NCBI GenBank assembly: GCA_002418705.1
Contig: DIEQ01000041.1
Coordinates: 39,749 to 51,894 of the forward strand
Source of the DNA: Mageeibacillus sp. UBA5770
GTDB taxonomy: Bacteria > Bacillota_A > Clostridia > Saccharofermentanales > Saccharofermentanaceae
Reading direction: 5' to 3'
DNA: 12,146 bases
In this document: positions 39 through 11,984 of the stretch, piece after piece
Position numbering within the stretch: position 1 is the stretch's first letter
How the letters are laid out: each line of letters begins with the position of its first letter
Position numbers and translations under genes: made by a program
Notes under the pieces: generated by a model
The model's input: the letters and a program-made list of their open reading frames with translations, nothing else
Told to the model about the DNA's origin: nothing
Databases searched by the model: none

Positions 39-1103
39 TCAAACGTCCTCCTGTGGGGTATAAGCCTCAATTCCTATATCTGAAAAAGTCGACATATCAT
101 TATAGACAGCCAGCGCCATATCCAGAAGTGGCCAGGCACATACGGCGCCGGTTCCTTCGCCGAGCCGCATCCCGGCTGTTATCAGCGGCTTCAGGTCAAG
201 TGCGTCAAGTGCCATGTATCCTGCAGGCTCTGCAGAGACATGGCTCGATATCATGGCACAGCCGCATCCCGGACACAGGCGCGCTGCAAGAAGTGCACTT
301 ACGGCACTTATAAAGCCGTCAATCATCACAGGTATGCGGTAAATTGCTCCTCCGATGAATACACCGGCCATCCCTGCAATATCAAATCCGCCAAGCTTAT
401 GAAGTATATCGAGTGCATCAGAAGGATCCGGTTTATTGCATTCGATTGCCTGCTCGATTACTTTGATCTTTCGTTTCAAACCTGTATCCGATAATCCTGC
501 GCCACGGCCGGTAACATCAGAGACAGGACGGCCAAGAAGAACCGAGGCAACAGCACTTGATGTTGTCGTATTGCCGATACCCATTTCTCCTGTAGCAAGC
601 ATCGAATAACCTTGTTCTTTTTTCTGACGTACAAGGTCTATTCCAACTTCTATTGCCTGCAGCGCCTGATTCCTTGACATCGCAGGACCAACCGCAATAT
701 TTCCTGTACCGGGACCAACTCGTCTGTCAAGAATCCCTGGCACTTCGGAGTGGCTGTTCATTCCAATATCCACCGGAATAACAGCAGCATGGGCAATGTC
801 CGCCATGCGGCAGACGGAGGAATTCCCGCGGGCAATATTTTCGGCAACGATACGTGTTACATCACTTCCGCACTGTGTCACGCCCTCAGCGACAACACCG
901 TTATCCGCACACATGACAAGGACTGCACGCCTGCTTATATCGATGCTTTCGGTTCCGGTAAGTCCGGCAATTTTAACGACCGTTGCTTCCAGAAGTCCGA
1001 GACTCCCGAGCGGGATTGCAAGATTCGTCCAGCGGGCAAGAGCACGTTTTGTCACTTCAGGATTCACCGGTGCAATGAAATCATTCCAGTTTCCAATACT
1101 CAT
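39..1103 (-). CDS. cobT: Nicotinate-nucleotide--dimethylbenzimidazole phosphoribosyltransferase
   Basis: This 354-aa cytoplasmic enzyme transfers the phosphoribosyl group of nicotinate mononucleotide to 5,6-dimethylbenzimidazole (or another lower-ligand base). The product is the alpha-ribotide joined to GDP-cobinamide in late cobalamin synthesis. Family hallmarks are visible in order: DNGVVAEGV near residues 67-75, GEMGIGNTT at 172-180, SHVSAEPAGY at 287-296, and RLGEGTGA at 313-320. Glu316 in the last motif matches the catalytic glutamate of the Salmonella enzyme. The length agrees with the usual 350-360 aa. An open frame extends 16 codons further upstream, but the ATG at 1103 has AAGGAGGAG five bases before it, so I start there. 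The gene is the fourth of btuF-btuC-btuD-cobT-cobU, and its ribosome binding site overlaps the btuD stop codon. Confidence 0.95.
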   Translation of the reverse strand: MSIGNWNDFIAPVNPEVTKRALARWTNLAIPLGSLGLLEATVVKIAGLTGTESIDISRRAVLVMCADNGVVAEGVTQCGSDVTRIVAENIARGNSSVCRMADIAHAAVIPVDIGMNSHSEVPGILDRRVGPGTGNIAVGPAMSRNQALQAIEVGIDLVRQKKEQGYSMLATGEMGIGNTTTSSAVASVLLGRPVSDVTGRGAGLSDTGLKRKIKVIEQAIECNKPDPSDALDILHKLGGFDIAGMAGVFIGGAIYRIPVMIDGFISAVSALLAARLCPGCGCAMISSHVSAEPAGYMALDALDLKPLITAGMRLGEGTGAVCAWPLLDMALAVYNDMSTFSDIGIEAYTPQEDV

Positions 1104-1107
1104 ATCG

Positions 1108-1116
1108 CTCCTCCTT
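1108..1116 (-). promoter_or_regulatory. Ribosome binding site that sets the cobT start
   Basis: On the minus strand this reads AAGGAGGAG, five bases before the ATG at 1103. It overlaps the TAA stop of btuD (1115-1117), suggesting coupled translation. It decides against the longer open frame that would start at 1151 inside btuD. Confidence 0.85.
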
Positions 1117-1918
1117 ACTCCTGCCACAGTGCAAGCAAGCTCTCCATCCAAACATATACATCCATAGAATAGGTTTTTTTCAGGTTTTCCCGTGTAAGGA
1201 CTTCATTAATATCCCCGGAAGATACCAGGTTCCCATGGTCAAGAAGTAAGGCATGTGTACCATATGCCTTTGCCAGGCTGAGATCATGTACCACTGATAT
1301 AACCGCCCGTCCCGAATCTTTGATCCATTCCTTAATCAGTCCGAACATCTGTTTCTGGTACACCAAATCCAGGTGATTGGTTGGTTCATCAAGGATCAGA
1401 AGCCTCGGATTCTGAGCAAAAAGCTGCGCAAGAAAGGTTCTTTGCAGCTCTCCGCCGGAAAGCGTCAGCACCGACTGCTGCCTGATCGGAAGCATCCCGG
1501 TCAATTCAAGCGCACGGTGTATCTTTTGCTCGTCTTCATCTGAAGTCGCCCCGAAAATTCCCGTTGAATATGCATACCGGCCCAGTTTGACAACTTCTTC
1601 AACAGAAAACGAATAACTGACATTGTGATTCTGCGTAAGAACGCCCAGTTTTCTGGCAAGGTCAGAAGGTTTGTGCCGGATTATATTTGATCCGTCAAAT
1701 TGTACCTTCCCTGAATATGGCACTCCCTGTGAAACGGCATTTACGACCGTACTCTTCCCCGCTCCGTTCGGTCCGACAATCATCAGCCATTGTCCCGGTT
1801 CAATCGAGAAGCTCACATTGTTGACGATGGTCAATTTCCCATAACGAACGGTCAGGTCTATAACATCCAGCAGATTTTCTTTTTCAGTCAGGCCGGATTC
1901 AATTATCTTTTTTGACAT
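1115..1918 (-). CDS. btuD: Corrinoid ABC transporter ATP-binding protein
   Basis: This 267-aa cytoplasmic ATPase powers the BtuC permease. All ABC motifs are intact: Walker A GPNGAGKST at residues 49-57, Q-loop Gln96, signature LSGGE at 153-157, Walker B LLILDE ending at Glu178, and the switch His211 in VVHD. It belongs to the FecE/BtuD/FhuC type that serves class II importers. Cobalamin rather than siderophore as substrate is inferred from the upstream cobalamin riboswitch and the cobT-cobU neighbours. The start ATG at 1918 lies three bases after the btuC stop, with a purine-rich AAAGGCGGGA before it, so translation is probably coupled to btuC. The N-terminal 18 residues before the first ABC strand are slightly longer than usual. 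Confidence 0.92.
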   Translation of the reverse strand: MSKKIIESGLTEKENLLDVIDLTVRYGKLTIVNNVSFSIEPGQWLMIVGPNGAGKSTVVNAVSQGVPYSGKVQFDGSNIIRHKPSDLARKLGVLTQNHNVSYSFSVEEVVKLGRYAYSTGIFGATSDEDEQKIHRALELTGMLPIRQQSVLTLSGGELQRTFLAQLFAQNPRLLILDEPTNHLDLVYQKQMFGLIKEWIKDSGRAVISVVHDLSLAKAYGTHALLLDHGNLVSSGDINEVLTRENLKKTYSMDVYVWMESLLALWQE

Positions 1919-1921
1919 AAT

Positions 1922-2953
1922 TCATCCCGCCTTTCTTGCTTTGTAAAATATTAATACAAATGCGATGGCACCGATAAATGAGGTAACAACGCCAATCGGA
2001 ACTTCAAGAGGTCTCAGAAGTACTCGCCCGGCAAGATCAGCAAGCATCAGGAACGATGCCCCCGTGAAAAGGGATACGGGCAAAAGTTTTTTATGGTTCG
2101 GACCTACGATCATGCGCGTCATGTGAGGTATGACAAGGCCGACAAAACCGATTGTTCCTCCAATAGACACACATACACCGATTAGCGCAGATACGGATAT
2201 CAGCACGGTAAACTTCACTTTTCTCACATTTACGCCAACATGACGGGCATTATCCTCGCCGATGGCAAATGCATTCAATTCCTGTGAAAACAACAGAATG
2301 AGCGCGCCAAAAATGACCAGTGCAGCAAAAAGTATCAAAGCATTTTCATAACTGCTTCCGGCCAGAGACCCCATCGTCCAGAACATTATGGATTTGATTT
2401 TATCCCCGGAAAAAGTAATGATAAGGCTGATGATACTGTGCGCAAACATGGTAAATATCACACCGATCAGGATGATGGTATTCGTCGAAAGCGAAAAATC
2501 TAATTTATATGACAGGGACAGTATCAGAATGAGGGACAAAAATGCAAAAAGCATCGCCATAATAACCGTCCCGCCAAAAGGCAGGCCCGGGACGGTGATG
2601 CCGAAAGCGATCGCAATGACGGCTCCGAGTGAAGCACCTGAAGATACCCCCAAAGTGGATCCGTCTGCCAGCGGATTGCGCAGCAGTCCCTGCATCGCAC
2701 CGCCGCAAAGGGACAGGGATGCGCCGACAAGTGCAACACACAGGATACGCGGAAGCCTTACAAAAATAATGATGGACTGGGAAATACCCGCAGGTATCGG
2801 CAGGCCCCATATCGTATACCATATTGCTGTCAGCGTATCCTTTACGGGAACGCTCACGCTCCCGGCACACACACACAGCAGCATGACACACAGTGTAACG
2901 ATGCCAAACATAATATATTCAAATAATATGAAGCCTTCACGTCTGTTTTTCAC
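1922..2953 (-). CDS. btuC: Corrinoid ABC transporter permease (FecCD family)
   Basis: This 343-aa polytopic membrane protein should form the homodimeric channel of the importer. It has the many hydrophobic segments expected of the FecCD/BtuC family. It also carries its two recognisable motifs: GGAMQGLLRNPLADGSTLG at residues 84-102 and GTIGFVGLVIPH at 266-277. The latter lies near the segment that docks the ATPase. The start is a GTG at 2953 with an AAGG seven bases upstream. An internal ATG at residue 15 is possible but would trim the N-terminal helix lead-in and lacks a better ribosome binding site. It is the second gene of the riboswitch-controlled operon, separated from btuF by 57 bases containing a GC-rich hairpin. 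Confidence 0.93.
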   Translation of the reverse strand: MKNRREGFILFEYIMFGIVTLCVMLLCVCAGSVSVPVKDTLTAIWYTIWGLPIPAGISQSIIIFVRLPRILCVALVGASLSLCGGAMQGLLRNPLADGSTLGVSSGASLGAVIAIAFGITVPGLPFGGTVIMAMLFAFLSLILILSLSYKLDFSLSTNTIILIGVIFTMFAHSIISLIITFSGDKIKSIMFWTMGSLAGSSYENALILFAALVIFGALILLFSQELNAFAIGEDNARHVGVNVRKVKFTVLISVSALIGVCVSIGGTIGFVGLVIPHMTRMIVGPNHKKLLPVSLFTGASFLMLADLAGRVLLRPLEVPIGVVTSFIGAIAFVLIFYKARKAG

Positions 2954-2975
2954 TTGATTACCTTCAAATATTTGG

Positions 2976-2999
2976 GGGGGCGGAGCAATCCCCGCCCCC
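2976..2999 (-). promoter_or_regulatory. GC-rich intergenic hairpin between btuF and btuC
   Basis: On the minus strand GGGGGCGG and CCGCCCCC form a perfect 8-bp stem around an 8-base loop. The sequence after it is CC then AAATATTT rather than a run of T, so it does not look like an efficient terminator. Its place just after the binding-protein gene fits an mRNA-stabilising or partial-termination element that gives more BtuF than BtuC/BtuD, a common arrangement in ABC importer operons. That role is inference. Confidence 0.6.
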
Positions 3000-3010
3000 T
3001 GTAATTCATA

Positions 3011-4015
3011 TTAAGAACCTGAATTTGTTTCATAAACGTATGTATACAGAGTCTTTACCGCATCGGCAAGGCGCGGACCGGGACGGGATATTTCATTGGA
3101 GTCTGCATTCAGGATTGTTTCGTTCTTTATAGCCTTCATATCCTGCCAGCCTTCACGTCCCATGATTTCTTCGACCGGGGTTACACCTTCACCAAAGTAC
3201 ATTGCGATGGTTACAATATAATCGGGATCACGCTCGATGACCTGTTCCTGAGACACCTCGCCCCAGCCTTCTACATCGACGAAAATGTTTGTCAGCCCGA
3301 TCATTGTGGCCAGTTCATCCATGAATGTACCTTTTCCAGCGGTCCAAAGGCCATATTCGAGAGGAGACACTTCAAAATAAACTGTTTTGCCGCTTGCTGC
3401 ATCTGACTTCGAAGCAATCTCATCAAATGCGGTCTTCATCTGGTCAACCACACCAGCCGCCTGTTCATCTTTGCCTGTAATGGCACCGATGAGTTCAATG
3501 GCCGTATAGACACCGTCAATATCTTTCGCATCACTGACCACAACGGAAATACCTGCCTCTTCAAGGGCAGCAATCTGTTCCTCGGTCTGTGCCATTGTGC
3601 TCATAAGTACAACCTGAGGCTCAAGTGCTATGATTTGTTCAATATTGGTATCCATTCCGGACTGTACGGAAGGAACACTGCTGACCTCTGCCGGATAATC
3701 ACAGTATTCACCGCGGCCGACAAGCGCAGCTCCTGCACCGAGGGCAAAGAGGATTTCACAATCCGATGCCGTAAGGGCTACAATTTTGTCTGCAGGTGCT
3801 TCGAGAGCGATTTCACGACCGGTCATGTCAGTAATCGTAATGCCGGGAACTGCAGCCTCCGTGGATTTTGTCTGAGACGCTGTCGTTTCAGTTACGGCAG
3901 ATAATTCCGTCGAAACAGCAGCGGTGGTTGCACTCGCTTCTGTTGAACAGCCTGCGGCAAGTGACAGCATCATAACAGCGGACAGGGCAATTGATAATAG
4001 TTTTGTGATTTTCAT
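3011..4015 (-). CDS. btuF: Corrinoid-binding lipoprotein of ABC importer
   Basis: This 334-aa protein is the extracytoplasmic receptor that captures corrinoid and delivers it to BtuC. A lipoprotein signal peptide is clear: a basic start, a hydrophobic core, and the lipobox LAAGC with Cys23 as the lipidated residue. A Ser/Thr/Ala-rich linker follows to about residue 57. A class III (BtuF/TroA-like) binding fold then begins with the strand pattern ITDMTGREIAL, followed by KIVALTASDCEILFALGAG and IIALEPQVVLM. AAGGAGGG sits just upstream of the ATG at 4015. It is the first gene behind the cobalamin riboswitch, and that context is what argues for corrinoid over heme or siderophore. No ligand-determining residues can be read with certainty. 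Confidence 0.9.
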   Translation of the reverse strand: MKITKLLSIALSAVMMLSLAAGCSTEASATTAAVSTELSAVTETTASQTKSTEAAVPGITITDMTGREIALEAPADKIVALTASDCEILFALGAGAALVGRGEYCDYPAEVSSVPSVQSGMDTNIEQIIALEPQVVLMSTMAQTEEQIAALEEAGISVVVSDAKDIDGVYTAIELIGAITGKDEQAAGVVDQMKTAFDEIASKSDAASGKTVYFEVSPLEYGLWTAGKGTFMDELATMIGLTNIFVDVEGWGEVSQEQVIERDPDYIVTIAMYFGEGVTPVEEIMGREGWQDMKAIKNETILNADSNEISRPGPRLADAVKTLYTYVYETNSGS

Positions 4016-4097: not shown

Positions 4098-4159
4098 AAT
4101 AAAGATAGACGAATCACGCCTAACAATACAAATTCTCAACCCCAGGAGTTTAAAAAACG

Positions 4160-4326
4160 TGTAAACAGGTCTCCCGACTTAGCTTCATCCTACTTTGGCG
4201 TCTTCCCGTCATAAGACAGTGACTTATTTGCCATTTCGTCAGCTTCACGGTTACTGGGATAGTCCGGAAATCTCATCCGCGTTCCCTTGGTATCTTTCGA
4301 CACCAGCACATTTCGTGCAGTTCACA
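4160..4326 (-). promoter_or_regulatory. Cobalamin riboswitch aptamer
   Basis: The minus strand carries the conserved cobalamin-aptamer elements in order. GGTGTC-GAAA-GATACC forms a hairpin leading into AAGGGAA. GATGAGATTTCCGGAC follows, then the GTCACTG core element (4217-4223), and finally the B12 box AAGTCGGGAGACCTG (4166-4180). The ends can close a P1 helix: TGTGAAC (4320-4326) with GTTTACA (4160-4166), seven pairs including one G-U. It lies upstream of btuF and is followed by an intrinsic terminator, so adenosylcobalamin binding should stop transcription of btuF-btuC-btuD-cobT-cobU. Which cobalamin form is preferred cannot be told from sequence alone. Confidence 0.92.
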
Positions 4327-4416: not shown

Positions 4417-4959
4417 TTATGATAAGGTGGATAATATGTCAGAAGGTATTCTTCTGTCCTGTTTGTCCGTCTCTGTAATAATTACCATTGGGTCAGCAGC
4501 CAAAAAAGCAAGTGTAATTTCTTTAGCCAGCTCCCTGATTACATCCTGGAAAGAGACAATTCCATCCTTTTCAGGCCAAGTCTGAATCGAAAAAACGCAC
4601 TTGGTGAAGTTCTTTTTTGCTGTGAAAACGGCAGCTGCACGGCCATGACCGGCGTCCTGTGTTTCGAATGCATAAATGATCCAGTCTTGTGTCCTTGACA
4701 TCAGATAAAGCTTTTCGGGATCATTCGAAGTTGATTTAGCTGCATGAACATGAAGCGCGATTTCTTTCATGATATCCGGAACCGTCGCTGTTGTCTCATA
4801 AATAATTTTACGCCTGACGAGCTTAAGTCCAACCATATATTGAGAACGATTCAAAAATTGAGTCACAACTGTTTTTCGAGCCGAATTCCTGGCCTTATGA
4901 AAAAGAAAAGCAAAACTATTCTGCATGCCGGCGGCAAAAGAAGAATCCAAAATACTCAT
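4417..4959 (-). CDS. Unrecognised soluble protein, about 180 aa
   Basis: I do not recognise this protein. It has no signal peptide and no membrane segment. An N-terminal stretch rich in Ser, Phe and Lys/Arg leads into a mixed alpha/beta pattern: strands around MVGLKLVRRKIIYET (42-56), WIIYAFET (93-100), AAAVFTAKK and CVFSIQTW (121-128). Helices lie around PDIMKEIALHVHAA and FQDVIRELAKEITLAFLAA. The open frame extends 18 codons upstream to a GTG without a ribosome binding site. The ATG at 4959 has AAGGG upstream at a longish 11-base spacing and is preferred, though not firmly. The gene stands alone between the terminator of the SipW cassette and the riboswitch promoter, with no terminator of its own visible before 4372. 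A weak TTGTTA/TACAAT pair with a short 15-base spacer lies upstream. The length and codon regularity support a real gene. Confidence 0.7.
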   Translation of the reverse strand: MSILDSSFAAGMQNSFAFLFHKARNSARKTVVTQFLNRSQYMVGLKLVRRKIIYETTATVPDIMKEIALHVHAAKSTSNDPEKLYLMSRTQDWIIYAFETQDAGHGRAAAVFTAKKNFTKCVFSIQTWPEKDGIVSFQDVIRELAKEITLAFLAADPMVIITETDKQDRRIPSDILSTLS

Positions 4960-5045
4960 ATATATAATCACCCTTAAGTAAGCTGCTGTGGATGTCTGAT
5001 TTATTGAATTCACTTAACCAATTGTATTTCTTCTTATAGAATAAC

Positions 5046-5097
5046 AAAAATAATTGTTATGAATAGGTTGAAATTTCTTCAACCCTCTATTCATAAC
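5046..5097 (-). terminator. Terminator hairpin overlapping the end of the 332-aa client gene
   Basis: On the minus strand GTTATGAATAG and CTATTCATAAC (11 bp), plus the inner pair GTTGAA/TTCAAC (6 bp), form a 17-bp stem. It has a three-base bulge and a five-base loop and is followed by AATTATTTTTG. The 5' arm contains the last sense codons (Gly-Tyr-Glu) and the TAG stop of the upstream gene. It closes the SipW cassette. Confidence 0.82.
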
Positions 5098-6085
5098 CAA
5101 CATTTATGGAAAAATCCGACTGACTGCCTATTGATGTATAGTCAAATGATATCGTAAATGATCCATCAGCGTTGGGTACAAAGTTCCTGAATAATCTGAC
5201 CTGTTCGCTCATACTGTTCAGATATGGACCGGCATATATTATTCCATTCAAGTTAAGTGAAGTAATCTGTGTATAATTACCGGCATCTGAATTCAAATTC
5301 TGTATGACTATGGCATTCGGGCCAACATACACTGACGTGTCAATATTCGTGTACTGATAAGAAACCTGATTATTTCTGTATATAGTAAGAGTAGCGGCAG
5401 GTTTATCAAAAACGATATTGATCGTACCGGTTTGACTGTTATTATAGTTTCTGGCTGGAGAGATAGCTCCCGGAACCGGTACTTTTAAATAAGCCCAGAC
5501 ATCCGTCTTATTGGGAAACTTTGGTTTCAGATATACTGAGTACCAGCGATTAACTAATACATTATCAATGATCTGCTGCAGAGATGTCGGTGTTCCCCAG
5601 CATGTGACACTTGCACGAACCGTTTGCGCTGCAAAAGGAATGTTATCCGTACTGATCGGCTGACCATTATAGAAATATGCAAGCTTCATTTGTTTATAAT
5701 CTACAACACCACTGACAAACTGATTCTTCAGCACAAGGACTGCTGTATCACCGACAAATGATGATATCGCAAGCTGCGTGTTATCAAGGCTGTAAACGCC
5801 TGCCTGCAGTCCGGCAGTTGATTGCCCGGGAGTAATTTGAATTTGAATATTTGTATCATAATCATAGTCTGAAATTGCTGCCGTATTAAACGCTGTGAAC
5901 ATCCAGTCAGGCGTGTTCTCAATAAATTCCGAATCAGCTACAGTTAAGGTTTGAGAAATATCAAACACTTTCGTAGAGATCACTGACGAATTCACATTCA
6001 CTGTCGATGTATACAGTGAAAATGATTCAGTAACCATTGCAGAAAATATCAATACAGACATCAGCAGCAAAAAGACTTTTTTCAT
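5087..6085 (-). CDS. Secreted protein with SipW-type signal peptide, 332 aa
   Basis: This is a probable surface or fibre component exported through the general secretory route and processed by the SipW peptidase of the same cassette. The N-terminus has two lysines, a hydrophobic core at about residues 4-18, then ESFSLYTSTVN and a Ser-rich stretch ending in FDIS near residue 43. This layout resembles SipW-dependent leader regions, and the 177-aa protein at the head of the cassette shares it (LAAYTVTLN). The mature part is rich in Asn, Thr, Ser and Tyr with alternating beta-strand patterning, no further membrane segment and no sortase motif. GGAGGAA lies ten bases before the ATG, and the gap from the preceding gene is 35 bases. 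As the larger, last-placed client it could play a TapA-like anchoring or minor-subunit role, but that is inference. No enzyme motifs are visible. Confidence 0.78.
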   Translation of the reverse strand: MKKVFLLLMSVLIFSAMVTESFSLYTSTVNVNSSVISTKVFDISQTLTVADSEFIENTPDWMFTAFNTAAISDYDYDTNIQIQITPGQSTAGLQAGVYSLDNTQLAISSFVGDTAVLVLKNQFVSGVVDYKQMKLAYFYNGQPISTDNIPFAAQTVRASVTCWGTPTSLQQIIDNVLVNRWYSVYLKPKFPNKTDVWAYLKVPVPGAISPARNYNNSQTGTINIVFDKPAATLTIYRNNQVSYQYTNIDTSVYVGPNAIVIQNLNSDAGNYTQITSLNLNGIIYAGPYLNSMSEQVRLFRNFVPNADGSFTISFDYTSIGSQSDFSINVGYE

Positions 6086-6120
6086 GATTGTCTTGTTCCT
6101 CCAAAGAACTTGTCAAATGT

Positions 6121-7521
6121 CTATTGCCTGGATTTTAAAGATTTCGATGACTTCATCAGGAAATTGTATATTGGTTTGTAGAAGAAAATCAGAAAAGACG
6201 GGATTAGAAGCGACAGTAATCTTCCGAAAATCGTATTATTGAATAAAATCAGGGCACCGAGCCACCGGCTTCTGTTTTCATAGATTCCATAGATATCTTT
6301 TCGGTCGATTTCCTTTTTAAGAGCTTCAGACTGCGACATCGGCGGATAATAATCAACATCAACAGTCAACACTTCTTCATTAACTGCAACAATTCTTTCG
6401 ATGAAAACATCCTGATTTACTTTGAATAATACAATATCCTGTACTGCAAGAGGTTGTTCTGTATCAATTCTTCTGATAAAGATCAGATCATTTTTCATGA
6501 TAGCAGGCTGCATCGTGTCAGATTGGAACACATAAGGAATGTATCCTGAGAAATCCACGTCTTTTTCAGGTGACATTGCAGATACGATCAGAACAGCAAC
6601 ATTGAAAAGGATACCTGCACCAATAATGCATAATAATATCGTTTTAAAGAAAACGGCGGTTATTCTGTTAATGCCTCTCTCCTCTACATGTTTTGCCATG
6701 ACAATTTCATGTGTCCTGTAGTTCTGCACGGCATATTTTTCATTATTATCTTCCTTCACACAGTAGAATTTTGAAATACTGTGTGCACGGTAAATGCAGA
6801 CGATCACGCATGTCACAATTAACACACCGAAAATAAGTATATAAATGGATTCACGCAGGTTAAATAGATTGCCGATATTCTTCATGGAGTCCCGGTTCGA
6901 GATGATGCGGTAATACCCTGTCACAATTTTCAACAAGAAAATCGCAAGGGCCGAAAACAAAATTACTAATCTGGCATTATCAAAAACTCTGAAATACAGA
7001 GAAATAGTCATAGAAATGAATACAATGATCATAATATCGAAAAGTCCGCTGAAATAAACCGGCAAAAAGTAATCCGGAATAAATGGATATTTGAGAATGG
7101 CAGTCAGCAGGATAGTTAATGCAAACCCCAGACTGTATGTTATGACAACCGAAATCAGGCGAACAGCAAGCTTTGTCAGAATCATTTTTCGAGTACTGAA
7201 CTGCATTTTGATTAAAAGATACCAGCTATTATCACGAATCTCCGAAAAGGTCAGATACTCGTAGAAATAGAGGAAATATAGAAGAAAGAAAATATAGGAA
7301 ATATTGGTATAGGCAAAAGTGACGGAGAAATACCCCGGAATCATTAGCTCGGGCAGCTTCTCGGTTAAGACACTCTCATAAACAGTCTGCAGCAGAAAAT
7401 GAAAGGCAAAAGAAATCAGTCCTAAAAAGACACCGAAAGAAAACAGACTCGTGATGCTGATTCTGTATTCGGTATATGACTGTCGTAATTCTTTTTTAAA
7501 GTAATTCGTATTATAAATCAT
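6121..7521 (-). CDS. ABC-2-like permease fused to a catalytically degenerate SipW-like signal peptidase domain
   Basis: This 466-aa membrane protein has two parts. Residues 1-280 contain about six hydrophobic segments (near 24-45, 71-88, 118-142, 157-176, 182-200, 224-243), and EIRDNSWYLLIKMQ at 94-107 resembles the coupling region of ABC-2 permeases. After a seventh segment (290-314) comes a SipW/S26-like domain. Its box I is QSDTMQPAI (333-341) where active enzymes have SxSMxP, so Thr336 replaces the nucleophile Ser. Box II reads FIERIVAV (373-380) where SipW has THRI, so Glu375 replaces the catalytic His. The usual KGDN box is not preserved. The typical C-terminal IYGIYENRSRWLG is followed by an eighth segment (431-449). 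The start overlaps the pseudo-ATPase gene by 11 bases. The ribosome binding site GGAGGAA is 13 bases away and lies in a small hairpin. An inactive membrane partner or scaffold for SipW is my reading. Confidence 0.8.
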   Translation of the reverse strand: MIYNTNYFKKELRQSYTEYRISITSLFSFGVFLGLISFAFHFLLQTVYESVLTEKLPELMIPGYFSVTFAYTNISYIFFLLYFLYFYEYLTFSEIRDNSWYLLIKMQFSTRKMILTKLAVRLISVVITYSLGFALTILLTAILKYPFIPDYFLPVYFSGLFDIMIIVFISMTISLYFRVFDNARLVILFSALAIFLLKIVTGYYRIISNRDSMKNIGNLFNLRESIYILIFGVLIVTCVIVCIYRAHSISKFYCVKEDNNEKYAVQNYRTHEIVMAKHVEERGINRITAVFFKTILLCIIGAGILFNVAVLIVSAMSPEKDVDFSGYIPYVFQSDTMQPAIMKNDLIFIRRIDTEQPLAVQDIVLFKVNQDVFIERIVAVNEEVLTVDVDYYPPMSQSEALKKEIDRKDIYGIYENRSRWLGALILFNNTIFGRLLSLLIPSFLIFFYKPIYNFLMKSSKSLKSRQ

Positions 7522-8491
7522 GCAGTCTATTTAATTCCTCCAAGGAATTCTCCACCCTTCCCTTATTTATTTTGATATTGTCAGGTGAAATTCCATTTTC
7601 AAAAAGTATGCGAAGAAATTCACTGTCGGTCAGTCGGGAATCGGAATAGTTATATACTAATATGCTGTTCCCATGTGTTACATATGTGTAATTACTGTAT
7701 GACTTTGCCAGTGTTTCAGCCACGGCTTTCGGATTGCTGTCTGAAATCAAATACAATACTTTATCCCAGGTTCTGCACAGATCTGCGACAGAACCAAAGA
7801 AATGTATGGAACCTTCCAGTACATAGGCAACTTTATCACAGCAGACACCGATAAGTTTGGGCTGGTTGGTACCGATTACAATACTTCCACGTTCTTTTAT
7901 ATAAGAACAGATCTTCATAATCGAACGAACCTGACTATCCGTAAAGTCATATTCCAGTACGTTGAATACAACAAGGGTGCTGTTGGAATCAGCTGCTGCC
8001 AGAAGCTCAATGATTAATTTCTCGGTATCGCTTAAATCTGCGATTTGGGAAAGCGCAATATAATCCAATCCATATTCAATAAGTGTATCAAGATGCTTTT
8101 TTTGTCTGTTCTTCAAGGAAATCCCAGAATATGACGTAACAAATACCAGAAACTCGAGTACGGTCATATTGTCATAAAGCATATTGGGTGTATCTATGTA
8201 GAAGAGATGCGGCAGAATAAGGCGTTTTTTCTGCATCATTCCTTTTTCCGCAAGTACGCATTTTCCGCTGTAATAAGGTCGGACATTAGCAAGGATTTCC
8301 AGAAGAAGTCTGGCCTCCTGCTTCACTTTTGCAGTAATACCGACAGCCTCACCCATCAATACTTCAAAAGAAATATTCTTAAGGATTCTATCAAGCTCGC
8401 CGGATCTGAAGTAATGCTCCGCTGAGCAGATATCTGACATCATGACTGCTTTTTTAATCTGATTATTCGAAAAGTTATCTGTTAGTAACAT
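7511..8491 (-). CDS. ABC ATPase homologue lacking all nucleotide-binding motifs (pseudo-ATPase)
   Basis: This 326-aa cytoplasmic protein follows the ABC-2 ATPase fold from end to end. The A-strand pattern is ILKNISFEVLMGEAVGI, and a mid-domain region has TVLEFLVF. The terminal extension ends NSLEELNRL, like the usual SLEDVFLEL. Yet the catalytic motifs are gone. The Walker A slot aligns without gaps as AKVKQEARL (52-60) in place of GPNGAGKST. The signature is LSDTE (153-157) in place of LSGGQ. Walker B is LVVFNV (173-178) in place of hhhhDE, and the switch is GTNQP in place of xTHD. The frame is intact and coupled to its neighbours, so this is a maintained protein rather than a decayed gene. 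An upstream in-frame ATG at 8521, directly after the sipW stop, has no ribosome binding site. The ATG at 8491 has GGAGGAG at close spacing and is preferred. It probably pairs with the downstream permease as a structural or regulatory subunit. Confidence 0.82.
   Translation of the reverse strand: MLLTDNFSNNQIKKAVMMSDICSAEHYFRSGELDRILKNISFEVLMGEAVGITAKVKQEARLLLEILANVRPYYSGKCVLAEKGMMQKKRLILPHLFYIDTPNMLYDNMTVLEFLVFVTSYSGISLKNRQKKHLDTLIEYGLDYIALSQIADLSDTEKLIIELLAAADSNSTLVVFNVLEYDFTDSQVRSIMKICSYIKERGSIVIGTNQPKLIGVCCDKVAYVLEGSIHFFGSVADLCRTWDKVLYLISDSNPKAVAETLAKSYSNYTYVTHGNSILVYNYSDSRLTDSEFLRILFENGISPDNIKINKGRVENSLEELNRLHDL
7533..7549 (-). promoter_or_regulatory. Hairpin containing the permease ribosome binding site
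   Basis: On the minus strand AATTCCT-TGG-AGGAATT is a perfect 7-bp inverted repeat with a 3-base loop. It includes the GGAGG that serves the permease-fusion gene. It lies inside the end of the pseudo-ATPase gene, so ribosomes finishing that gene would melt it. This suggests translational coupling that keeps the two products in proportion. Confidence 0.5.
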
Positions 8492-8521
8492 GACTCCTCC
8501 ATAAAAGAGAAAAGACTGCAT

Positions 8522-9046
8522 TTATGTCAGGGGAACTTTCAGAACAAGAACGGCAGATACAGCCGAAGGCGCAACAACTTCACTGTCAGGCGAATTAATT
8601 ACATTATCGCCTTTCGTTTTATAGCCATTTGTACCATCATCCATCGTTACAACCTCAATAATACGATGCGTTATGATCATATCCTTTGAGTTAATAAAAG
8701 TAATGATATCCCCCACTTTCAAGCTGTCTGCATCTTCAGGGGTTTGGGACAGGATAATACTTCCAACCGGTAATGTTGGATCCATACTGGCAGATTCAAT
8801 TTCATAAAGTTGAAATCCAAAAACAACAGGTGTCTTGCCGCCTGACTTGGCCAACAGAATAAGAATCAGTACTGCAGAAAGAAGCACAACAGCAATTCCA
8901 AACATAATATTCATATTGAAATGTAGTATTTTTCCGGGCAAAAAACTGCGTTTGGGGAATGATTTCCCTTCAAAGTCAGAATCTGCCAGTTCCTGCTGCA
9001 TTTTTTGAATCTGGTCGTGTGTCGTATAGCCGTTACGTAAAGGCAT
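8522..9046 (-). CDS. sipW: SipW-type (ER-type) signal peptidase I
   Basis: This 174-aa membrane peptidase should cleave the signal peptides of the two TasA-like clients in the cassette. About 44 residues of hydrophilic N-terminus precede one membrane segment (about 45-66). The S26 boxes follow: ESASMDPTLPVG with nucleophile Ser87, LKVGDIITF, and ITHRIIEV with His127. The last takes the place of the lysine used by ordinary bacterial enzymes and is the mark of the SipW/ER type. YKTKGDN with Asp147 and a SPDSE segment come next. The ATG at 9046 has GGAG six bases upstream; the longer frame begins with a TTG lacking one. Unusually the protein stops soon after the catalytic core at VLVLKVPLT, so the C-terminal membrane segment typical of SipW is absent. 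The fusion protein downstream carries such a segment. Confidence 0.9.
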   Translation of the reverse strand: MPLRNGYTTHDQIQKMQQELADSDFEGKSFPKRSFLPGKILHFNMNIMFGIAVVLLSAVLILILLAKSGGKTPVVFGFQLYEIESASMDPTLPVGSIILSQTPEDADSLKVGDIITFINSKDMIITHRIIEVVTMDDGTNGYKTKGDNVINSPDSEVVAPSAVSAVLVLKVPLT

Positions 9047-9052
9047 AAGATT

Positions 9053-9056
9053 CTCC
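9053..9056 (-). promoter_or_regulatory. Ribosome binding site that sets the sipW start
   Basis: GGAG lies six bases before the ATG at 9046, on the minus strand. The alternative TTG start at 9082 has only TCTCTTTGA upstream, so the shorter 174-aa form is favoured. Confidence 0.65.
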
Positions 9057-9122
9057 GTATAATTTGATGTCAGTAATGTCAATCAAAGAGATGCAATGCA
9101 TTGTATTCTATAATATAAATGC

Positions 9123-9156
9123 AAAGAAAGGGCTTCCCCATTATTAGGGAAGCCCT
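9123..9156 (-). terminator. Terminator-like hairpin between the small client and sipW (probable attenuator)
   Basis: On the minus strand TGGGAAGCCC-type symmetry gives a perfect 10-bp stem: AGGGCTTCCC type arms at 9129-9138 and 9147-9156, with an 8-base loop. It is followed by TTTCTTTG, an interrupted T tract. I see no convincing promoter between it and sipW, so partial read-through would give much client protein and little peptidase. This ratio logic is inference. Confidence 0.75.
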
Positions 9157-9174
9157 CAGCAATTAAATGATTGT

Positions 9175-9708
9175 TTATGCCTGTGTTCCGGTTACTGATA
9201 CAGTCACGGCCGTTCCGAATGAGTGTCCGGCATAAGCGATGTCGCCTGCTGCGGACGGCCAGGTAATGGCAACCCGGTAGGTGTTTGTGGCAGCAGTTGT
9301 ACCGAAAGAATCAGTAACAGAAAGTACACCTGCACCGTTTGTCAGTGAACCTGTTGATAAAGTAGTCAAATTATCGATAGTGGTAACTTCAGCTGTTAAC
9401 GGAACAATAATTGATTTGCCTGAAGCAGCTTCAAACGTTACGGAAATAGCAAGATCCATCGGTACTTCAGATGTAATAGTTCCGTCGTTATTTGAGACGG
9501 TAAAGTCCATATAAATTGTCTCCGAAGGTGCAATCAGAACATCAGTCGTAAAGTTATCTTCACCTTCACCGGTAAGCTTGAAGTTCTTAGCCATTGCTGA
9601 ACCTGAAGCAATCGGATTCAATGTAACCGTATAAGCGGCCAGTGTGCCTGAGACCATAGATGCAACAATCGTAAGAACAAGAGCAGACATGAGCAATAAC
9701 TTTTTCAT
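9175..9708 (-). CDS. TasA/camelysin-like secreted protein with SipW-type signal peptide, 177 aa
   Basis: This is a likely abundant surface-fibre subunit or matrix protein. The leader has KK, a hydrophobic core, then SGTLAAYTVTLN and ASGSAMAKNFKL, the pattern seen in SipW-dependent proteins (compare GTLAYFTD...FxAGxLDL in TasA and camelysin). Cleavage is expected near LAA at residues 23-25. The mature chain of about 150 residues is Thr/Ser/Ala-rich and strand-forming. It contains IAPSETIYMDFTVSNN (59-74), which parallels the PGDS...F.(L/V).NNG strand pair of the TasA fold. There are no Cys residues, no sortase motif and no second membrane segment. A strong promoter lies upstream, GAGGGGG precedes the ATG, and a terminator-like hairpin follows, all fitting high expression. 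Fibre formation is inferred from family resemblance and context, not shown. Confidence 0.85.
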   Translation of the reverse strand: MKKLLLMSALVLTIVASMVSGTLAAYTVTLNPIASGSAMAKNFKLTGEGEDNFTTDVLIAPSETIYMDFTVSNNDGTITSEVPMDLAISVTFEAASGKSIIVPLTAEVTTIDNLTTLSTGSLTNGAGVLSVTDSFGTTAATNTYRVAITWPSAAGDIAYAGHSFGTAVTVSVTGTQA

Positions 9709-9745
9709 TATGTTTCCCCCTCATATTTAGCCAGCATTTTACGTT

Positions 9746-9774
9746 AGTTTAATAGTTTGGACATTTATTGTCAA
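9746..9774 (-). promoter_or_regulatory. Sigma-A promoter of the SipW cassette
   Basis: On the minus strand a perfect TTGACA (9769-9774) is followed after 17 bases by TAAACT (9746-9751). The expected start near 9739 gives a leader of about 30 bases before the 177-aa client. The AT-rich stretch from 9775 to 9919 upstream holds no gene; I see no clear operator in it. Confidence 0.82.
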
Positions 9775-9986: not shown

Positions 9987-11924
9987 TTACGTGATTTTTT
10001 CATAATAACTTCCGAAGTGTGAGCTTGAATAACCATAATATTTAATTGTATCATATGTAAATGTGTAAAAGATTTTTGTATACGAATCATACCAGGTGTT
10101 ATCCCCAACAATATCAAAATAAATATATGCTGAGGATCCGGCTGGGATTTCAATCCAGGAAATCGCGTAGCCGCTAGAATCTGTTAATTGCAGCAGTCTG
10201 TCGAAATCGTAATAGTCATAATCATAAAGAAGACAATCTTCATTGTATATCCTTATGGGCTGTGACCCTGTATTTTGAAAATAGATGGCTATATTTCCCG
10301 TATTTAAGTTAGTATACGAACTGCATATTACGTTGTAATTCGGCTCGTATGGTGCCCGGGGAACAACCTGTACCTGCACAAACGCATCATACACTTTTAC
10401 AGTACCGGCAGTTCGGCATGCTCTCACCTTGTAATAATATGTTCTGTTAGCGGTTAGTCCGGAATCCTTGAAGGAAAGAAGCGATGTCTCTTTTATCATT
10501 ACAAAGGAAGTTGTCGCAGAAGTTGACCGATATATCTGGTAACTTGTTGCCCCCGAAACAGCGTTCCACCTTACGGTTGAACCATATAATGCGGACGATG
10601 CGCTTAAACCTGTCAGTGAATTGAGTGATGGCGCAGCATTTTTGATGGCTGAGAATGCTCCGTATCTTTTTGCAGTACCAACCATTCTAAAGGCTCTGAC
10701 TTTGTAATAATATTTCGTACCGGTAACCAGCCCGGTATTTAAAAGTGTAGTTGCAGATGTGGATTTTATTATGACAAACCCGCTTGTAGCAGATGTCGAT
10801 CGATATATTTCATATCCATTTGCCCCGGAAACAGCAGACCAGGTCAGGTTGATACTGTTATATGATGCACGTGCTGCTGTTAAGCCTGATACGGCTCCAA
10901 GCGTTGTTTTTACACTTTTGTATGCACTGTATGAGCCATACGTAATTACCGTTCCGGCGGTGCATTTTGCGCGGACTTTATAGTAATAAGTCTGTCCCGT
11001 TGAAACACCAGTATTTGCATAACTTAGGGATGAAGATTTACCAACAAGAGAATACGAACCTGTGGCGGAAGATGCGCGATAAACTTCATAAGATACCGCG
11101 CCTTTAACTGCACTCCAGGTAATCGTTATTTTATTATATGAGGAAGGAGTGGTTGAGATCACGGGTGCTGTAATTTGCCCGAAAACGGCTTTAATTGTTC
11201 TTGCGGATGTTACCGGAAAACTGTAAGTATATTGGGTTGAGACGTTTGTGGAACCTTCCAGCCAATACGCAAAATAGTAACCTGCGTTGGGAATTGCTGT
11301 AATAGTTGCCTGTGTTACACCATCATCGGCATATGTGCCGCCGCCTGAAACGGTACCGGCCGGTGTGCTGTTGACAAGTACAGAAATTCTATACTGGTTT
11401 ACAAGAAGTCCAATTGCACTATTTACCGCATCCGTCTTCCCTGTTACTTCCAGATTCGTGCTTTCAGGCATTGCAAAAGCCGAGTCCCTTGCGCTTATAA
11501 ATAAAGTCCAGCTGTCCGGAGTAAAATCAGCCTGATTCAATGCATTGGCTGAATTTACCGCAGCATCGAGAGCGGTCTTACCGGCAAATTCCAAAGCGTC
11601 TTTCGCATCGGCAATCGAATCTGCAGCCATATCAACAGTTAATTGGTCTGCATCAATATTGCTTTCGACTTCAATAGCCGACTGTATCGCACCTGAATAA
11701 TTATTCCAGGTTACATCAGAGTAATCCGTCGAAGTCAGATTATAGACGGTTCGGGTCATACCATCGCTGAATTCAAAATTGATTGCTGCTGTGAGTGCGG
11801 TTTTATCGGCAGCCGTTAATGCAAAAACAAAAGTCGGCAAACTGCAGATTATGGCAATAATAATAAAAAGAGTAATGAAAAATCGAGTTGATCCCCTTTT
11901 ATCAGTACAAACTTTTAACTTCAT
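9987..11924 (-). CDS. Secreted multidomain surface protein: FIVAR-like, InlB-like repeat, three fibronectin III domains
   Basis: This 645-aa exported protein is probably adhesive or matrix-associated. Domains in order are as follows. An ordinary Sec signal peptide (1-35) ends TFVFA before LTAADKT. Two helical FIVAR-like units span about 36-175; the second has the typical spacing DFTPDSWTLFISARDSA...GKTDAVNSAIGLL. A divergent InlB-type repeat (about 177-249) contains GGGTYADDGV, ITAIPNAGYYFAYW and AVFG. Three tandem fibronectin III domains (253-340, 343-432, 434-523) each show TWSAV-G---YE-YR and TYYYKVRA-like motifs. A Tyr/Asp-rich C-terminal domain (about 524-645) is unassigned. No LPXTG or S-layer anchor is visible, so attachment is unclear. 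The ATG at 11924 has GAGGA eight bases upstream; the longer frame starts at a TTG without one. It is transcribed apart from the SipW cassette, so a functional tie to it is only positional. Confidence 0.88.
   Translation of the reverse strand: MKLKVCTDKRGSTRFFITLFIIIAIICSLPTFVFALTAADKTALTAAINFEFSDGMTRTVYNLTSTDYSDVTWNNYSGAIQSAIEVESNIDADQLTVDMAADSIADAKDALEFAGKTALDAAVNSANALNQADFTPDSWTLFISARDSAFAMPESTNLEVTGKTDAVNSAIGLLVNQYRISVLVNSTPAGTVSGGGTYADDGVTQATITAIPNAGYYFAYWLEGSTNVSTQYTYSFPVTSARTIKAVFGQITAPVISTTPSSYNKITITWSAVKGAVSYEVYRASSATGSYSLVGKSSSLSYANTGVSTGQTYYYKVRAKCTAGTVITYGSYSAYKSVKTTLGAVSGLTAARASYNSINLTWSAVSGANGYEIYRSTSATSGFVIIKSTSATTLLNTGLVTGTKYYYKVRAFRMVGTAKRYGAFSAIKNAAPSLNSLTGLSASSALYGSTVRWNAVSGATSYQIYRSTSATTSFVMIKETSLLSFKDSGLTANRTYYYKVRACRTAGTVKVYDAFVQVQVVPRAPYEPNYNVICSSYTNLNTGNIAIYFQNTGSQPIRIYNEDCLLYDYDYYDFDRLLQLTDSSGYAISWIEIPAGSSAYIYFDIVGDNTWYDSYTKIFYTFTYDTIKYYGYSSSHFGSYYEKIT
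10356..11168 (-). repeat. Three tandem fibronectin III coding repeats
   Basis: Three consecutive units of about 88-90 codons share WSAVxGAxxYEIYRSTSAT and YYYKVRA motifs. Units two and three are most alike, and the third has WNAV and YQIYR variants. They encode likely spacer or adhesion modules and arose by internal duplication. Confidence 0.8.
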
Positions 11925-11984
11925 GTATGATATCCTCACTTTATATATATTTTTCTTATATCTCAAATAAAATCTTTATATATT

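Follow-up and report, generated by a model that had tools for sequence, protein, structure and literature searches.

A SipW signal peptidase encoded beside a degenerate ABC transporter pair in Mageeibacillus sp. UBA5770: a candidate scaffold for the maturation of putative fibre subunits

Dedicated SipW signal peptidases are encoded beside their secreted clients in the tapA-sipW-tasA operon of Bacillus subtilis and in the camelysin operon of Bacillus cereus. TasA subunits are joined via an N-terminal strand (PMC9674648), and TapA is a strand-donating chaperone for TasA (PMC10151520); the passages of these two papers that deal with the operons name no ATP-binding cassette (ABC) ATPase, permease or inactive peptidase. 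A clostridial SipW-dependent fibre operon, sipW-bsaABCRSD of Clostridium perfringens, has a two-component system, and the term ABC is absent from the main text of the paper that describes it (PMC7395162). The locus described here, from Mageeibacillus sp. UBA5770, likewise has a dedicated sipW beside client genes, but encodes in addition a degenerate ABC ATPase homologue (pseudo-ATPase) and a fusion of an ABC-2-type permease with an inactive, SipW-like signal peptidase domain of the S26 family. It lies in a 12,146-nucleotide stretch of contig DIEQ01000041.1 (positions 39,749 to 51,894), which is termed the window and whose own numbering is used below.

Five open, co-directional genes on the minus strand occupy positions 5087–9708, in agreement with the original prediction for this DNA. 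In the order of transcription they encode client 1 (177 amino acids; 9175–9708), SipW (174 amino acids; 8522–9046), the pseudo-ATPase (326 amino acids; 7511–8491), the fusion (466 amino acids; 6121–7521) and client 2 (332 amino acids; 5087–6085). The genes for SipW, the pseudo-ATPase and the fusion are linked and co-occur, SipW is intact, the active sites of both partners are degenerate, and purifying selection has acted on them. We propose that SipW is a subunit of a non-hydrolysing, ABC-derived scaffold which handles the precursors of fibre subunits and ties their cleavage to fibre growth, and we put the probability of this at roughly 55%.

Linkage and co-occurrence of the three genes

Searches of a protein collection gave 59 matches to the fusion and 48 to the pseudo-ATPase, both counts including a few fragments as well as the protein of the window itself. 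When one genome per species was scanned, 30 loci were obtained (given L numbers here). They are found in isolates that the record titles assign to Desulfosporosinus and Anaerobacterium chartisolvens, and in metagenome-assembled genomes labelled Lutispora, Gracilibacter, Mageeibacillus, Peptococcaceae, Clostridiaceae, Oscillospiraceae and Ruminococcaceae, among others. A SipW scoring 224 bits or more is encoded upstream of the pseudo-ATPase, which is followed by the fusion, in 25 of the 26 loci with enough upstream sequence; L010, L019, L022 and L023 end before any sipW position and are left out of this count. The gap between sipW and the pseudo-ATPase gene is 421 nucleotides in L014. When all distinct complete loci are taken together, the window not counted, the linked three-gene set is present in 33 of 34.

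Two classes were searched at the genome level, and as only part of the candidates were scored in some genomes (up to 5 and up to 26), absences there are not proof. Among 82 genomes from the class of D. hippei, 22 have a fusion match, full-length in 17, and the same 17 genomes carry both the pseudo-ATPase (390.9 bits or more) and a cassette-type SipW (234.9–285.6 bits); seven other SipW-like matches score 96.9 bits or less. In the class of A. chartisolvens, with 291 genomes sampled, 35 genomes match the fusion profile. Five of the matches are full-length and all five adjoin sipW and the pseudo-ATPase gene; three of these loci are the already counted L007, L012 and, to judge from matching scores, L015. 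The remaining listed matches start at profile position 194 or later and thus lie outside most of the permease. The three genes are side by side in 18 of 18 regions, from 16 genomes of the D. hippei class and two of the other class; eight of the regions are new loci, and ten are repeats of earlier loci and were counted once.

Linkage with degenerate motifs across species was what the original prediction named as support for it, and such linkage is conserved across several genera. Homologues are not confined to this genome, and the ABC-derived genes are tied to sipW in every complete locus except L030. This locus, where the pair stands alone beside genes of unrelated look, could suggest that the pseudo-ATPase and fusion have a job of their own and are merely co-transcribed with SipW and the clients. 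That is decidedly unlikely, given that the three genes stand together in all but one of 34 loci and in each of the 17 genomes, and given the cassette-specific features within SipW itself, which are described below.

An anti-phage system or a mobile element was also considered and rejected: the five proteins have no PADLOC match at 0.01, and no relative of the fusion was found in viral contigs.

Two inactive partners and an intact SipW

The window's proteins had been read in the original prediction as a motif-less ATPase homologue, a SipW-like domain without catalytic residues and an active-looking SipW, and the comparison with their relatives bears out all three. The pseudo-ATPase probably starts at the ATG at 8491, which follows a GGAGG, and its gene overlaps that of the fusion by 11 nucleotides; in the comparison with homologues the window's row begins one codon past this ATG. 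Homology to ABC nucleotide-binding domains is clear from a profile comparison against the PDB, which gave a best E-value of 2.4e-17 and 254 sequences at 0.01. The window protein has no Walker A, signature or Walker B motif in place, and this degeneracy is family-wide. A P-loop is present in none of 70 cassette ATPase homologues (67 distinct strings; L010 and L023 are fragments that miss the P-loop part) and in nine of nine control ABC ATPases. In an alignment of 64 sequences, two fragments aside, none of the 62 covering rows has Walker A, an LSGG-type signature or the Walker B Asp-Glu in place. The string GK[ST] occurs within the first 110 residues of nine of the 70, seven of these nine having it outside the Walker A region, and two signature-like and five hhhhDE strings all lie off the signature and Walker B positions.

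Conservation in the family, counted over 59 distinct of 62 sequences, lies elsewhere. For the stretch expected to contact the permease (the Q-loop, LPHLFYI..LEFLVF), just 0.7% of equally long windows reach its level of conservation. The places of Walker A, the signature, Walker B and the H-loop give 64%, 33%, 27% and 45%, respectively. The frames of the pseudo-ATPase and fusion overlap by 11–53 nucleotides in 24 of 25 loci (the fusion start was picked by pattern and is undetermined in one), as expected for translational coupling.

The permease half of the fusion (residues about 8–254; 6760–7500) has the ABC-2 fold in a predicted model, resembling NosY and the ABCG permeases. In its coupling-helix stretch conservation is good, at a level that 5.7% of windows reach. 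Perhaps, then, the permease still works as a transporter that exports or clears cut signal peptides, a lipid or a polysaccharide, with another ATPase as the source of power and the pseudo-ATPase as the regulatory half of a mixed pair. An ABC transporter of Staphylococcus aureus can bypass signal peptidase, but this is abolished by a Walker A mutation (PMC5013292), and Walker A is what the cassette protein has lost. The cassette holds no second ATPase, and the ABC ATPases near some loci are at scattered positions. Continued transport is therefore improbable.

The second half of the fusion (residues about 322–420; 6262–6558) carries T336 at the position of the catalytic Ser and E375 at that of the His. 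Ser and His occur together in none of 72 fusions, which are distinct over residues 301–441 and come from 75 rows, L030 being outside the set. The His position is never His, and is Glu in 62. An active peptidase that uses Thr is unsupported for this reason, and the name ‘S26 family signal peptidase’ that NCBI records give to three fusions is contradicted by the lost residues.

The S26 fold itself is retained in the predicted model, which matches SipA, a pilus protein of Streptococcus pyogenes, at 1.9 A over 90 residues. SipA comes first in a Foldseek search (E-value 0.005) and is the sole S26 chain among the 50 matches listed in a comparison made half by half. By sequence, SEC11C/A come ahead of SipA for this half, none significantly. 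The whole fusion has no Foldseek match at an E-value of 0.001 or less, and the fold assignment is that of its two halves. SipA is an S26 protein without the Ser and Lys that is essential for pilus polymerisation and has a conserved peptide cleft; according to a proposal made in its study, it binds a key component in a conformation favourable to assembly (PMC4049620).

A membrane helix closes the S26 half of the fusion in 43 of 43 sequences when aligned columns are used (values of 1.73 or more; a looser earlier measure gave values down to 1.27). The best conserved stretch of the protein, residues 416–446, lies there, with 0.9% of windows as conserved. L019 and L023 have fusion frames of 613 and 678 amino acids, compared with the usual 447–494, and so contain extra C-terminal sequence.

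With both active sites gone, it may be asked whether the pair is a decaying relic. The ratio of nonsynonymous to synonymous substitution rates (dN/dS) is 0.09–0.43 for the pseudo-ATPase and 0.05–0.19 for the fusion in four pairs of Desulfosporosinus, and 0.03–0.43 overall, with synonymous sites near saturation in one of the four pairs. As every one of these close pairs stays well under 1 and conservation away from the lost sites is strong, pseudogenes in decay are disfavoured and a relic is highly improbable.

SipW, with its start at the ATG at 9046 downstream of a GGAG, is the intact member. Signal peptidases of the S26B type use Ser-His-Asp, and Ser87, His127 and Asp147 are invariant in all 26 aligned cassette SipWs. 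The window protein scores 84 bits against TIGR02228 (cut-off 51.85). Against the Bacillus SipW equivalog NF046067 it reaches 95.3 bits, below the cut-off of 190, in a match that ends at position 124 of the 189 of the profile.

Two features set the cassette SipWs apart from 28 non-cassette SipW-like proteins (taken from loci as the search returned them; two have no recognised Ser box). First, the protein ends about 26 residues past KGD, and no C-terminal hydrophobic helix is found in any of 33 cassette SipWs, as opposed to 21 of 26 non-cassette proteins from the class of A. chartisolvens. One of these 21 is borderline (1.64 against a threshold of 1.6), and the five without the helix are two short frames and three multi-helix proteins of about 400 amino acids. 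One transmembrane helix is predicted in the window protein, and its lack of a second, C-terminal one is unlike SipW of the tapA-sipW-tasA and camelysin operons. Second, a cytosolic N-terminal motif, YTT..QI..M, is present in 24 of 26 cassette SipWs and in none of the 28 others. At 3.1 bits its conservation is comparable to that of the catalytic boxes (3.2–3.7) and far exceeds that of the linker (1.4). The simplest reading is that SipW has turned into a subunit whose lost and gained parts fit the dead transporter. Separately, L057, L061 and L064 encode proteins of about 400 amino acids with several predicted transmembrane helices followed by a SipW-like domain, which is another fusion of a membrane protein with a signal peptidase.

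A regulator could also be expected to show one-to-one co-occurrence, as seen in 17 of 17 genomes, and an inactive S26 domain whose fold is conserved and whose gene neighbours that of an active S26 protein. The dead transporter would then serve as a decoy or inhibitor which sequesters the signal peptides of clients, or SipW itself, times cleavage, and possibly reports to the cytosol via the pseudo-ATPase. The loss of the C-terminal helix of SipW suggests a constitutive subunit rather than an enzyme that meets an occasional inhibitor, and no regulatory domain is seen in the window proteins. Regulation of this kind is unlikely.

Clients and the scaffold reading

Both clients of the window have signal peptides of the SipW type, with Tyr at P2′ as read by eye (..SGTLA|AY.. 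in client 1 and ..ESFS|LY.. in client 2). Tyr at P2′ is present in 58 of 58 relatives of client 1, where the cleavage site was fixed by pattern. Client 1, the small TasA-like subunit, has no family match above cut-off in the window; for the 26 other members, judged by E-values only, the best is 0.00042. PF12389 (TasA/camelysin) matches four of the 27 members at E-values up to 0.1 (best 0.0041), the best match reaching 17.4 bits against a cut-off of 22.5. The predicted model of client 1 is a beta-sandwich with TasA among its fold matches. Its N-terminus is loose, residues 26–37 having a predicted local distance difference test score (pLDDT) under 50, which is no more than compatible with donor-strand fibre formation. 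The Foldseek list is headed by generic beta-sandwiches, phage tail fibres and toxin domains among them, and TasA is not among the 50 matches shown.

The large client of the original prediction has the signal peptide expected of it, but client 2 is only weakly similar to client 1 (hhalign probability 12%, E-value 0.0024), and a relative was found in one of 30 loci (L020) in a search limited to those loci, no protein-collection search being made. The closed five-gene unit is not the general form of the cassette, client 2 being rare. The usual extra partner elsewhere is a long client encoded upstream, of which 22 were found. All four that were scanned (L003, L015, L001 and L012) end in a CBM2 (CBM_2) cellulose-binding domain, and a possible function of the fibres is therefore the attachment of cells to plant material. 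In L001, L007, L016 and L028 an extra small protein of 70–255 amino acids with a SipW-type signal is encoded between the long and small clients, and it could act in the manner of TapA, as an anchor or a nucleator. No TapA was recognised in the cassette, for which no profile search was made.

A promoter-like site, TTGACA-N17-TAAACT, lies upstream of client 1 (9746–9774, minus strand). The claim of one strong promoter is weakened, since 39 promoter-like sites in the window are not above the 30.7 +/- 5.8 obtained in shuffled sequence. A 13-bp hairpin between client 1 and sipW (9128–9157, minus strand) is a possible attenuator or processing site, and the machinery genes may therefore be expressed as read-through or processed products. 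A stable hairpin occurs in this gap in 24 of 24 loci examined, by the best 40-nucleotide window and with no shuffled control. Such hairpins would fit strong expression of the client and weak expression of the machinery.

A scaffold, made from an inactive transporter, that holds or regulates SipW or docks clients was suggested in the original prediction, and it is the best-supported reading, leading but unproven; what we infer comprises the membrane topology, the existence of a physical complex, the binding of clients, the link between cleavage and fibre growth, and even the formation of fibres by the clients. The cassette would make extracellular fibres of TasA-like subunits and also the membrane machinery dedicated to maturing them. 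The one intact enzyme, SipW, would sit within a complex built from the dead ABC transporter. In this complex the pseudo-ATPase would dock on the permease at its cytosolic coupling helix, and SipW would be attached by its single helix and by the motif at its cytosolic N-terminus. On the outer face, beside SipW, would lie the inactive S26 domain, and the fusion would supply the C-terminal membrane helix that cassette SipWs lack. The domain may bind signal peptides or freshly cut N-termini of clients and not cut them, as was proposed for SipA. If the clients polymerise like TasA, their polymerising N-terminal strand becomes free on cleavage of the signal peptide, and could plausibly be held by an S26 domain that stands beside SipW and does not cut. 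Both the cleavage and the release of this strand might in this way be restricted to sites of fibre nucleation or growth. The scaffold gains in credibility from features absent from the original prediction: SipW has no C-terminal helix and has a cytosolic N-terminal motif, the fusion has a SipA-like fold, and conservation is highest where ATPase and permease are expected to meet and in the C-terminal helix of the fusion.

It should be pointed out that several observations weigh on the other side. The three PDB sequence matches of client 1 include no TasA chain, the best being an S-layer protein at 0.0032, and by fold TasA ranks level with beta-sandwiches to which it is unrelated. Two of the 70 pseudo-ATPases (L016 and L083) have a GKS string in the Walker A region; it is not a full P-loop, as the strings read G..GKS with the rest absent, and the column is variable in other rows. 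Two of 26 SipWs (L011 and L020) do not have the N-terminal motif as written. The exceptional L030 (8977–11353) encodes the pseudo-ATPase and a fusion that is eroded still further, sipW being absent from their side, and no client 1 relative was found in that genome, so that the pair can persist without sipW and client 1. The TasA, BsaA and camelysin operons have SipW and, as far as the cited passages describe them, no ABC partner, and a scaffold is therefore not needed in general. Lastly, no binding of SipA to pilin, to sortase or to peptides was detected in vitro (PMC4049620), which leaves the mechanism of the precedent itself open in that account.

Directly upstream of client 1, a secreted protein of 659 amino acids (9987–11966, minus strand) may serve as an adhesin at the cell surface; it has fibronectin type III and InlB-like domains, and its FIVAR match stays below cut-off. 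Downstream of client 2 is a putative gene of 198 amino acids (4417–5013, minus strand) with no family match above cut-off. Farther on, a cobalamin riboswitch (4147–4322, minus strand; 76.8 bits) lies upstream of what appears by eye to be a B12 uptake set of binding protein, permease and ATPase, together with cobT (39–4015, minus strand).

Comparison with known systems

Searches of titles and abstracts in the open literature, a scope that leaves most subscription papers and all bioRxiv preprints outside, found no description of an ABC-derived partner of SipW, and no open-literature paper was found on SipW together with Desulfosporosinus. We rate the cassette as a SipW/TasA kind of system with an added module, a dead ABC transporter and a dead S26 domain, for which no described counterpart was found.

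The added module can be compared with several known proteins. NosY and the ABCG permeases have ATPase partners that hydrolyse ATP, and we know of no such permease that carries an S26 domain. The SAUSA300_0351-0353 transporter of S. aureus, which bypasses SpsB, also ties an ABC transporter to signal peptide processing; it needs an intact Walker A (PMC5013292), in contrast to the pseudo-ATPase of the cassette, which has lost it.

SipA/LepA of S. pyogenes pili is, by analogy, the closest functional precedent. It likewise has an S26 fold with lost catalytic residues and is encoded in a surface-fibre locus. SipA is, however, a separate protein that serves sortase pili, while the domain described here is fused to an ABC-2 permease beside an active SipW. 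The cassette offers a way to test what inactive signal peptidases, SipA among them, do in fibre assembly, which the 2014 account of SipA left open (PMC4049620).

The cassette SipW is SEC11-like, and this brings to mind the eukaryotic signal peptidase complex. In that complex non-catalytic partners surround one catalytic subunit, and the accessory subunits are not derived from ABC proteins. Bacterial signal peptidases, to our knowledge, are usually treated as single proteins. If the proposed arrangement is true, an active SipW, a dead ABC motor and a dead peptidase-permease would make up a bacterial signal peptidase complex, and a whole ABC transporter would have turned into a scaffold. Tentatively, and with less confidence than in the scaffold as such, we suggest a multi-subunit bacterial counterpart of the eukaryotic complex, in which an ABC transporter has been wholly converted to a non-hydrolysing scaffold; the inactive peptidase domain on its permease would couple cleavage to the growth of the fibre and would hand the precursors of fibre subunits to SipW, the one active enzyme.

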